64,000 nucleotides of DNA from an uncultured Croceicoccus sp. (GTDB lineage: Bacteria > Pseudomonadota > Alphaproteobacteria > Sphingomonadales > Sphingomonadaceae): assembly GCF_947496385.1 (NCBI RefSeq), contig NZ_CANMCP010000006.1:1-64000 (forward strand), given 5' to 3'. Positions 4,073 to 42,417 of this stretch are shown here, one piece after another. Position numbers and translations under genes: made by a program. Every line of letters starts with the position of its first letter. Within the stretch, counting starts at the first letter, position 1. Under the pieces are notes generated by a model that saw nothing but the letters and a program-made list of their open reading frames with translations, was not told the DNA's origin and searched no databases.

Positions 4073-4148
<76 letters not shown>

Positions 4149-38969: not shown

Positions 38970-40352
38970 ATGGCTCTCGATATTCTCATCGTCGACGACG
39001 AACGCGATATTCGCGAACTGGTCGCGGGCGTGCTTTCGGACGAAGGTTACGAATGCCGCACCGCCGGCGACAGCCGCGCCGCGCTCGCCGCGATCGACGA
39101 ACGCCGCCCCTCGCTGGTGCTGCTCGACGTGTGGCTGCACGGCTCGCCGATGGACGGGCTGGAGGTGCTCGACGCGATCAAGGCGCGCGAACCCGACCTT
39201 CCGGTCATCATCTTTTCCGGTCATGGCAATATCGAGACCGCCGTGGCCGCGGTGTCGCGCGGCGCGGTCGATTTCATCGAGAAACCCTTCGAATCCGAGC
39301 GGCTCCTGCTCATGGTCGCCCGCGCGACCGAGACAGAGAGCCTCCGCCGCGAAAACATGCGCCTGAAACAGGATGACGAGGCGGGCTTTGCCGAGTTCAA
39401 CGGCAACAGCAGCGCGATCAACAACGTGCGCGCCACGTTGAAACGCGTCGCCAATACCGGCAGCCGCGTGCTCATCACCGGCCCCGCGGGTGCGGGCAAG
39501 GAAGTTGCCGCCCGCCTGCTGCATCAATGGAGCAATCGCGCGGACAAGCCCTTCGTCACCGTCAATTCCGCCCGCATCACCCCCGAACGGTTCGAGCAGG
39601 AGCTTTTCGGCGAGGAATCGAACGGGCGCCTCGTGCGCACGGGACTGCTGGAGACGGCGGACGGGGGCACGCTCTACCTCGACGAGGTGGCGGACATGCC
39701 CGAATCCTCGCAGGCGCGGATCCTGCGCGTGCTGACCGATCAATCCTTCGCGCGCGTGGGTGGCAACCGGCAATTGCGCGTCGACGTGCGGGTCGCATCC
39801 TCGACCTCGACCGATCTTGAGCAGGCGATCGCCGAACGCCGATTTCGGGAGGATCTCTACTACCGGCTCAACGTCGTGCCGGTCGCGGTGCCGGGGCTGA
39901 GCGAGCGGCGGCGGGACATTCCCGTGCTCGTCACGCATTTCTTCACCCGCTACGCCAATCAGCAGGGTCTGACCCCGCCGGAGGTGAGCGACGACGCGAT
40001 GGCGGTGCTGCAAAGCTACGACTGGCCCGGAAATGTCCGGCAGCTGCGCAATGTGATCGAGCGGACGGTCATCCTGACCCCGCGCGAGAAATTCACGCGG
40101 GTGGAGGCCGACATGCTCCCCGCCGAGCTCACCAGCGACAATGGCGAGGACAGCGCCGGGCTGACCGCGATGATGGGCATCCCCCTGCGCGAGGCCCGCG
40201 AACAGTTCGAGCGCGAATATCTGCGAATCCAAATCCGGCGCTTTTCGGGCAATATCTCCCGCACGGCGAGCTTTATCGGGATGGAACGCTCCGCTCTCCA
40301 CCGCAAGCTCAAGACGCTCGGCATCAATGAACGACGCGACGATCAGGAATAG
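38970..40352 (+). CDS. ntrX: response regulator NtrX
   Basis: 460 aa NtrC-like regulator with a receiver (Asp53 in VLLDVWLHG), AAA+ (Walker A-like GPAGAGKE, Walker B GGTLYLDEVAD) and a C-terminal Fis-like HTH (ISRTASFIGMERSALHRKLK). The region after LFGEES lacks the GAFTGA loop found in NtrC at the same place and is several residues shorter, so sigma54 activation is unlikely; it probably acts as a sigma70-class DNA-binding regulator, as shown for NtrX in some relatives. It is the last gene before the hfq promoter region. Confidence 0.95.
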   Translation: MALDILIVDDERDIRELVAGVLSDEGYECRTAGDSRAALAAIDERRPSLVLLDVWLHGSPMDGLEVLDAIKAREPDLPVIIFSGHGNIETAVAAVSRGAVDFIEKPFESERLLLMVARATETESLRRENMRLKQDDEAGFAEFNGNSSAINNVRATLKRVANTGSRVLITGPAGAGKEVAARLLHQWSNRADKPFVTVNSARITPERFEQELFGEESNGRLVRTGLLETADGGTLYLDEVADMPESSQARILRVLTDQSFARVGGNRQLRVDVRVASSTSTDLEQAIAERRFREDLYYRLNVVPVAVPGLSERRRDIPVLVTHFFTRYANQQGLTPPEVSDDAMAVLQSYDWPGNVRQLRNVIERTVILTPREKFTRVEADMLPAELTSDNGEDSAGLTAMMGIPLREAREQFEREYLRIQIRRFSGNISRTASFIGMERSALHRKLKTLGINERRDDQE

Positions 40353-40450
40353 CGTTTCGGGGAACCACTTGCGCTTCGGGGCTTTGGCCAAATAGAATTG
40401 GTGCGGCGCAGCGTGAAAGAGATTCGCACCTGCGCAACACGCAATGATTC

Positions 40451-40513
40451 GGCCGGTTCCATCCGGCCAGACTGCGGCGGGGGCAATCCCGCACGCCAAG
40501 AAAAAGGAAAAGA
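40451..40513 (+). promoter_or_regulatory. hfq leader: two hairpins and an (ARN)5 tract over the ribosome site
   Basis: GGCCGG-N6-CCGGCC (40451-40468) and GCGGG-N6-CCCGC (40477-40492) are perfect short hairpins. After them, AGA-AAA-AGG-AAA-AGA (40499-40513) gives five consecutive A-R-N triplets that overlap the Shine-Dalgarno of hfq. A-R-N repeats are the known ligand of the Hfq distal face in proteobacteria, so self-binding and autoregulation is a reasonable inference. An A-rich SD can produce such triplets by chance. Confidence 0.4.
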
Positions 40514-40515
40514 TC

Positions 40516-41088
40516 ATGGCCGGCAAGACATTGAGCATCAAGACACCGCCCCCCGCACCGCCTGCGCCCCCCGCGCCGCCCAAGCCCGCGAAGAAAAGCG
40601 CCGCCAAGGGCAGCCAGAATCTTCAGGATCTTTTCCTGAACCAGCTCCGTCGCAGCAAGACCCCGGTGACCATGTTCCTGGTCAAGGGCGTGAAGCTTCA
40701 GGGGATCGTCACCTGGTTCGACAATTTCTCGATCCTGCTGCGCCGCGACGGACAGTCGCAGCTTGTCTACAAGCACGCCATTTCCACCATCATGCCCACC
40801 GTGCCGATGGACGCCGAACAGTTCGAAATGGACGACGCCGTCCGCGGCAAGCGCCAGTTGCAGGACGTTTTCCTGACCTCCGTGCGCGAGGCGGGGGTCC
40901 ATGTGACCATGTTCCTCATCAATGGCGTCATGTTGCAGGGGCGCATCGCGGCCTATGACCTGTTCTGCATGCTGCTCGAACGCGAAGGCTATGTGCAGCT
41001 TGCCTACAAACACGCGGTGTCGACAGTGCAGCCGGTCAGCCACGTGGATCTGAGCGGCGACTGGGACGAAGATGGCGACGATGCTTAG
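40516..41088 (+). CDS. hfq: RNA chaperone Hfq with two tandem Hfq domains
   Basis: 190 aa, about twice the usual Hfq length. After a Pro/Ala/Lys-rich N-terminus (10-31) come two Hfq/Sm domains: repeat 1 (33-94, [16 protein letters not shown]...[10 protein letters not shown]) and repeat 2 (112-173, [14 protein letters not shown]...[10 protein letters not shown]), joined by about 17 residues, then an acidic tail. Compared with E. coli, repeat 1 keeps the proximal Q37, D38, Lys/His of YKHAIS (86-87), F71 and K60. Repeat 2 keeps YKHAVS and F150 but has M139 for K31, E125 for the second rim Arg, and T121 for Asn13. A trimer of this chain would make a pseudo-hexamer with alternating faces. ATG 40516 has AAGGAAAAG upstream. 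It precedes hflX. Confidence 0.95.
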
Positions 41089-41097
41089 GCCGACATC

Positions 41098-42417
41098 TTG
41101 AGCGACGACATTACCGGCGAAGTGACCCGCGGCGCGCGCGCCGTCGTGGTCATGCCCGACATCCGCACCGCCCATATCGCCGACCCGGAGGCCCGCCTCG
41201 AGGAGGGGCGGGGGCTGGCGCTTGCCATCGGGATCGAGGTGGTCGACAGTTTCGTCATCCCCATCCGCGAGGTGCGCCCCGCGACCCTTTTCGGCGCCGG
41301 TCAGATCGAGCGGATCGATACCGCCTGCACGATGGAGGAGGCCGAGCTCGTCATCGTCGACGGCGCCCTGTCCGCGATACAGCAGCGCAATCTCGAAGAG
41401 AAACTCAAGCGCAAGGTCATCGACCGCACCGGGCTCATCCTCGAGATTTTTGGCGAGCGCGCGGCGACGGCCGAAGGCCGTCTTCAGGTGGAGCTTGCCC
41501 ATCTCGATTATCAGGCGGGGCGGCTCGTGCGCAGCTGGACCCACCTCGAACGGCAGCGCGGCGGCTATGGCTTCCTCGGCGGGCCGGGCGAAACGCAGAT
41601 CGAGGCGGATCGCCGGATGATCCGCGATCGCATGGCCCGCCTGCGCCGCGATCTGGAGCAGGTACGCCGGACCCGCGCCTTGCACCGGGCGCGGCGGGGA
41701 AGGGCGCCCTGGCCCGTGGTGGCGCTGGTCGGCTATACGAATGCCGGAAAATCGACGCTTTTCAATCGCATGACCGGCGCTTCGGTCATGGCCGAGGACC
41801 TGCTTTTCGCAACGCTCGACCCGACGATGCGGGCGGTGTCGCTGCCTGCGGTGGAGAAGATCATCCTTTCGGACACGGTCGGTTTCATCTCCGACCTGCC
41901 GACACAGCTTGTCGCCGCCTTCCGCGCCACGCTGGAGGAGGTGACGGGCGCCGATGTCATCGTCCACGTGCGCGACATGTCGAGCGACGCCGCCGAGGAA
42001 CAGAAGCAGCAGGTCGAACAGATTCTGCACGACCTCGACATCAACGCGGAGGAGGGGGATGGCCTGCAGATTCCGGTGATCGAGGCTTGGAACAAGTGGG
42101 ACAGGCTTTCCCCCGATCGGCAGGAGCAGCTGAGCGAGATTGCCGGCCGTGAAGACGACACGCCGATCATCCCGATTTCGGCGCTGACCGGTGAGGGTGT
42201 CGACAGGCTCGAGCGGGCGATCGCGGAACGACTTACGCAGGATGCGCGCGTGTACGAGTTTCTGTTGCCGACCAAGGACGGGCAGCGGATCGCCTGGCTC
42301 CATGCACATGGCGAGGTTCTGTCCGAAGCCGCGGCGGGTGAGGGCGACGATGGCCCGCAAACCGCGATGACGGTGCGCTTGGGACCGATCGAATATGGCC
42401 GTTTTTCAAGTCTTTAG
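41098..42417 (+). CDS. hflX: ribosome-associated GTPase HflX
   Basis: About 439 aa from a TTG at 41098, nine nt after the hfq stop; GTG 41122 is an alternative eight codons downstream. The N-terminal HflX domain (1-195, ATLFGAGQIERI, HLERQRGGYGFLGGPGETQIE) is followed by a G domain with GYTNAGKS, TLDPTMRAVSL, DTVGFI and NKWD. HflX splits stalled or damaged ribosomes, notably after heat. The ntrX-hfq-hflX order is conserved in alphaproteobacteria. It is convergent with mazG at 9 nt. Confidence 0.95.
   Translation: MSDDITGEVTRGARAVVVMPDIRTAHIADPEARLEEGRGLALAIGIEVVDSFVIPIREVRPATLFGAGQIERIDTACTMEEAELVIVDGALSAIQQRNLEEKLKRKVIDRTGLILEIFGERAATAEGRLQVELAHLDYQAGRLVRSWTHLERQRGGYGFLGGPGETQIEADRRMIRDRMARLRRDLEQVRRTRALHRARRGRAPWPVVALVGYTNAGKSTLFNRMTGASVMAEDLLFATLDPTMRAVSLPAVEKIILSDTVGFISDLPTQLVAAFRATLEEVTGADVIVHVRDMSSDAAEEQKQQVEQILHDLDINAEEGDGLQIPVIEAWNKWDRLSPDRQEQLSEIAGREDDTPIIPISALTGEGVDRLERAIAERLTQDARVYEFLLPTKDGQRIAWLHAHGEVLSEAAAGEGDDGPQTAMTVRLGPIEYGRFSSL

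Follow-up and report, generated by a model that had tools for sequence, protein, structure and literature searches.

A double-domain Hfq from Croceicoccus and its relatives with conserved, differing RNA-contact residues in its two repeats

Hfq is a ring-forming protein that helps RNAs to pair, and in an uncultured Croceicoccus sp. it is encoded as two Hfq domains in a single chain. What does the second domain do, and what kind of ring would such a chain build? The gene, hfq, occupies positions 40516-41088 of the forward strand, on which all of its parts also lie, in a stretch of 64,000 nucleotides that we call the window (contig NZ_CANMCP010000006.1). The frame has no internal stop and yields 190 residues plus stop, a chain of 21.0 kDa; AAGGAA stands shortly upstream of the ATG (40504-40509). 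The Pfam Hfq profile PF17209 matches the protein in two stretches (181.2 bits, cut-off 27), and NF010691 (PRK14091), the NCBIfam model of two-domain Hfq, whose 176 positions span both domains, aligns in one stretch from residue 17 to 187 with its positions 4-175 (293.6 bits, cut-off 270). The initial annotation had described two fused, diverged Hfq domains, and the single frame together with both profiles bears this out. By profile, alignment and predicted structure the chain divides into a first domain, R1 (residues 34-94; 40615-40797), and a second, R2 (residues 113-173; 40852-41034), joined by a linker (residues 95-112; 40798-40851), and it ends in an acidic tail (residues 174-190; 41035-41085), whose net charge is -7 over the 16 residues assigned to it in the charge tally. 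R1 is preceded by a Pro/Lys-rich N-terminal extension of lower model confidence (residues 1-33; 40516-40614), and many relatives match only from residue ~20-30.

AlphaFold2, run with a 70-row alignment, predicts two Hfq folds at residues 36-94 and 115-173, each with a helix and five strands (mean pLDDT 88.3, pTM 0.76). The pLDDT is mostly above 90 in the domains and lower in the first 30 residues, the last 10 and around 101-110. One domain makes up roughly a third of the chain and reaches a TM-score of about 0.34 on query length in Foldseek; the pTM of 0.76 therefore suggests, as read from pTM alone, that R1 and R2 of one chain are placed against each other, a placement that may merely reproduce known Hfq contacts. 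For a strongly diverged member of the fast-evolving genus g13 a second Sm-like domain is still predicted, with a pTM of 0.88.

The gene lies between ntrX (38970-40352, forward; NF051870, 738.1 bits, cut-off 600) and hflX (41098-42417, forward; TIGR03156, 446.7 bits, cut-off 216.75). This setting is widely shared: across 200 fetched hfq loci hflX is a neighbour in 199 and ntrX in 184, and 14 of the 16 loci without ntrX come from families other than that of the window; locus L106 is truncated where its contig ends. Among named relatives the nearest in the alignment is Croceicoccus bisphenolivorans (L031), with 81% identity, which is also the sister on the HflX tree. A profile search of the whole genome (E <= 0.001) returned a single Hfq match. 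A leader of 163 bases (40353-40515) separates ntrX and hfq; in Zymomonas mobilis the hfq 5' UTR is reported to govern the Hfq level in ethanol stress (PMC5770649). A regulatory RNA in the window's leader was considered and set aside, the folding of 40353-40530 being just modestly above that of shuffled sequences (z -2.09; 8 of 200 as good). Rfam at gathering threshold matched nothing at the leader and, in the whole window, a tRNA gene alone (4076-4148, reverse strand); a scan of 40300-41200 for sigma-70 promoters gave no site.

An early Hfq survey (2002) may already have recorded double Hfqs. Two Sm-like domains were reported by Yang et al. (2010) for the Hfq of Z. mobilis and six other Sphingomonadales species (PMC2877685), in line with the statement in the initial annotation that double-Hfq genes had been noted in sphingomonads, for which NF010691 is further testimony. 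The same authors raised, as a question, a ring built from three double-Hfq chains, and connected hfq with the ability of Z. mobilis to tolerate inhibitors (PMC2877685). The architecture is thus not new but published since 2010. Z. mobilis Hfq (ZMO0347, PMC2877685), like the NF010691 model, carries two Hfq domains in one chain, and we found that the window Hfq differs from them in sequence divergence only, with no architectural difference. Hfq-dependent sRNA regulation has been reported for Sphingopyxis granuli (PMC6563040), whose Hfq may be single or double. The closest solved relative of R1 is Caulobacter crescentus Hfq (PDB 6gwk, 113.3 bits; 77-82% identity and an rmsd of 0.3-0.7 A in most top Foldseek rows), which differs in having a single domain per chain and an N28/K31 turn (E. 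coli numbering). E. coli Hfq shares family, fold, the proximal YKH motif and the A-pocket residues Q33, Q52 and T61, but has one domain per chain, whereas in the window Hfq the rim and the distal lysine are unequal between the halves. Hfq paralogues of the kind of Burkholderia hfq2 are separate genes rather than parts of one chain. They resemble the present case in that different kinds of Hfq domain occur together in a cell (PMC3474761).

How widespread is the fusion, and how often did it arise? We sampled 396 genomes of the order, 313 of them in the family of the window (f1, that is, Sphingomonadaceae as broadly circumscribed in the genome set, including Erythrobacter-like and Zymomonas-like genomes) and 83 in other families, with family tallies made by hand. 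Hfq was matched in all 313 f1 genomes and in 77 of the 83 others. Within f1, 13 genomes from seven genera are single-domain. The other 300 are called double, of which the domain scan accounts for 92 and the score only (E <= 1e-50; the best single reached 2.4e-34) for 208. The scan covered 105 fetched genomes (13 single, 92 double), among them all 23 with an E worse than 1e-50 (13 single, 10 double). From the other families 15 of the 77 matched genomes were fetched and all are single; for the remaining 62 the score alone would miss a strongly diverged double. In a class sample of 385 genomes, five exceed the NF010691 cut-off among the matches listed, all f1; in a phylum sample of 200, six do, again all f1 and including those five, and in the 122 matched phylum genomes below the cut-off the alignment ends by profile position 115. 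None of 14 control genomes exceeds the cut-off. Among the sampled genomes, the two-domain form as defined by NF010691 is confined to f1. The thirteen f1 single-domain loci (L120, L122, L123, L125, L126, L129, L130, L131, L132, L133, L135, L137 and L138; L134 is not among them) provide natural strains with which to compare the fusion.

The history looks simple. On an HflX tree the single or double label is explained by one change; the tree holds 86 of the 199 hflX-bearing loci, comes from a quick search with SH-aLRT only and has weak deep forks, with 34 of 83 inner branches below 80 and one f1 single (L126) placed among rows of other families. Several independent fusions or frequent loss are not supported by a tree that needs one change. 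In a tree of the repeats the R1 copies make up one clade (100/95) and the R2 copies another (100/99), apart in all 200 bootstrap trees checked, though this tree was built on 65 columns and rooted at its midpoint, its bootstrap had not settled and some of its branches are long, L118_R2 being the worst. Gene conversion homogenizing the repeats is not supported, because the clades are separate and because the R1 and R2 residue sets at positions 28, 31, 41 and 63 do not overlap in 142 sequences. Nor is a frameshift or assembly artefact, which the initial annotation had raised: both domains share one intact open frame in 172 of the 200 fetched loci. As far as these alignments go, the simplest history looks like a single, old tandem duplication inside hfq that dates from an ancestor of most Sphingomonadaceae and has been kept.

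We compared the repeats residue by residue in an E. coli-numbered alignment of 28 single Hfqs and 163 distinct doubles (172 minus nine duplicate cores), of which 142 lie outside g13 and 21 within it, g13 being tallied apart from the other doubles. A further 45 distinct singles from other Alphaproteobacteria, drawn from the 52 best-scoring loci and not at random, were aligned separately. Residues were placed on the proximal face, the distal face or the rim by E. coli numbering, and the counts are over related, not independent, sequences. In all 73 singles the distal turn reads N-G-V-K, with N28 and K31. The doubles outside g13 depart from this in opposite ways in the two halves: R1 has K28 and K31 in 142/142 and R2 has N28 and M31 in 142/142. 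In the window the R1 turn is K57-G-V-K60 (40684-40695), with K57, a change missed by the initial annotation, in place of the single-Hfq Asn, and the R2 turn is N136-G-V-M139 (40921-40932), with M139 in place of the single-Hfq Lys. The split is largely kept in g13, where 21/21 R1 copies have K28 and 21/21 a K or R at position 31, and R2 has N28 in 20/21 and M31 in 13/21. Single Hfqs carry one basic residue at positions 28 and 31 per domain (28/28 and 45/45); the doubles carry two in R1 and none in R2 in 161/163, and two and one in the other two. The basic count per domain pair is therefore unchanged, but sited in R1. Judged by alignment, R1 is close to the single Hfqs but has gained a distal-turn lysine (N28K), and R2 has lost the distal lysine (K31M). 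The same K-G-V-K and N-G-V-M turns occur at locus L167, which is Z. mobilis or very near to it, since it contains, without mismatch, three hfq primer sequences published for Z. mobilis. A search of the open-licence literature by title or abstract start found no treatment of this pattern at positions 28 and 31, and what appears new here is the residue-level division between R1 and R2, in which strongly conserved RNA-contact residues differ.

In Pseudomonas Hfq the backbone amide of K31 is reported to bond the phosphate of an A nucleotide, with an N-pocket suggested by simulations at I30 and the backbone of N28 (PMC8121710); in E. coli K31A is reported to lower RNA-RNA chimeras almost four-fold, with a mild regulatory effect (PMC12262471, a preprint). 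Because the backbone makes part of these contacts, the effects of the side chains at 28 and 31 are not predictable from the two sources, and, the K31A effect being mild, the lysine shift may matter little.

The remaining faces of R2 tell of both loss and retention. The rim segment (positions 16-19) of R1, R45 R46 S47 K48 in the window (40648-40659), has a net charge of +3 in 119/142 R1 copies outside g13, as in 26/28 singles. Its R2 counterpart, R124 E125 A126 G127 (40885-40896), has largely lost the basic patch, and across the same doubles its charge is 0 or lower in 93/142, +1 in 43 and +2 or +3 in 6, so that the patch is absent from most R2. The pockets are another matter. Outside g13 R2 retains the proximal residues Q8, F42, Y55, K56 and H57 and the distal residues F25, G29, V30, L32, Q33, Q52 and T61, each in 141/142 copies or more, and Y55, K56 and H57 are present in 142/142 copies of both repeats; the remaining listed R2 contacts are retained except at positions 9 (D111, E31) and 27 (V120, I22), and in both repeats the distal contact residues are retained save for N28K and K31M. 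Two further positions have moved in R2, with Leu at 41 in 138/142 and Gln at 63 in 142/142 (L149 and Q172 in the window); these and G127 at Arg19 were also missed by the initial annotation. Mean column entropy in R1 and R2 is 0.15 and 1.43 for the rim, 0.00 and 0.15 for the proximal and 0.01 and 0.06 for the distal positions. The four R2 residues singled out at first, M139, E125, T121 and F150, do align with E. coli positions 31, 17, 13 and 42, and M139 proves constant (M31 in 142/142). The identities of E125 and T121 vary among relatives: position 17 is most often D (50), E (29), N (16) or S (14), not basic in at least 109/142, and position 13 is most often S (95), G (14), A (10) or N (10) of 142. 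The refuting condition named in the initial annotation, variation of the R2 residues among close relatives, therefore applies to two of the three identities (E125 and T121) but not to the disappearance of a basic rim in general. The suggested alternation in RNA-binding competence finds support in the residues for the rim and the distal lysine only.

Is R2 then a passive, slowly decaying ring filler that leaves all RNA work to R1? Its rim charge is mostly gone and it evolves faster: for pairs of equal-length domains with mean dS 0.1-1.0 only, dN/dS is 0.054 in R1 and 0.154 in R2 outside g13 (663 non-independent pairs) and 0.117 and 0.675 in g13 (8 pairs). Across most of f1 purifying selection acts on R2, but in g13 it is much relaxed. 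In nine g13 doubles examined (L118, L119, L121, L124, L128, L134, L136, L139 and L140) R2 is strongly diverged, and the alignment shows its rim-bearing first helix shortened by two residues. Against passivity stand, outside g13, the twelve conserved proximal and distal contacts as well as M31 and Q63, two new states whose fixation is not what free decay would produce, and, within g13, the lysine and histidine of the YKH site, present in 21/21 R2 copies. Since almost all of its pocket residues on both faces are retained, R2 is probably not the silent spacer that had been one of the two options at the outset, and we regard a purely structural R2 as unlikely.

Based on these observations, we consider it fairly probable, from sequence and model, that three chains would form a three-fold pseudo-hexamer in which rim-active R1 alternates with rim-poor R2, and that this ring, derived from one duplication, would be the Hfq of the cell. 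Three chains, together about 63 kDa, would close a ring of six domains, each with a proximal and a distal pocket, while the basic rim patches would number three. With its acidic C-terminal tip, E. coli Hfq is reported to bind the basic rim and displace RNA (PMC5606850), and the rim change R16A to lower RNA-RNA chimeras about 100-fold (PMC12262471). The doubles retain an acidic tail after R2 (median net charge -6 over 142 doubles), and in the proposed ring three such tails would serve three rims. The distal lysines would be gathered in pairs on R1, and RNA on the distal face would meet lysine-rich and lysine-free turns alternately. R1 alone would supply the rim and carry out rim-driven sRNA-mRNA annealing, while R2 would hold RNA on both faces with little rim action. 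A different assembly, six chains forming an R1-only and an R2-only hexamer linked as a stacked dodecamer, would suit the retention of most of the Hfq core in both halves and a linker of 17-23 residues outside g13, and stacked dodecamers of Hfq are reported from crystals (PMC5379935). The pTM values of 0.76 and 0.88, which suggest that domains of the same chain pack together, and the constant basic count at 28 and 31 per pair, easier to account for with a shared distal face, speak against stacking though they are not proof, and we hold it to be distinctly improbable. Cutting of the chain in the linker, which would release two separate subunits to mix in rings, seems less probable still. The linker varies in length and sequence and is near neutral (median net charge +1; -3 in the window), processing is not readable from DNA, and the published Western blots are given, in the accessible text, without band size; on the other side, no linker residue is nearly invariant in the 70-row alignment, hence no obvious cleavage motif, and the one change on the HflX tree suggests that none of the lineages sampled has reversed the fusion.

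What would a three-fold ring with alternating R1 and R2 mean for the family? With confidence a little short of balanced, we tentatively extend the proposal to most Sphingomonadaceae, in which Hfq regulation may run on an obligate three-fold ring with an annealing R1 and a holding R2, the distal lysines having moved from R2 to R1 with their number per ring unchanged and being held there by selection since one ancestral event. The number of rim or distal sites that a ring requires is hard to test in a homo-hexamer, because a mutation there alters all six. A covalent double Hfq would offer two sets of three sites per ring, each changeable alone, and the conserved split between K-G-V-K and N-G-V-M, common to the Z. 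mobilis-like sequence, names the residues to test. The value of the double Hfq would lie in that test and not in its architecture.
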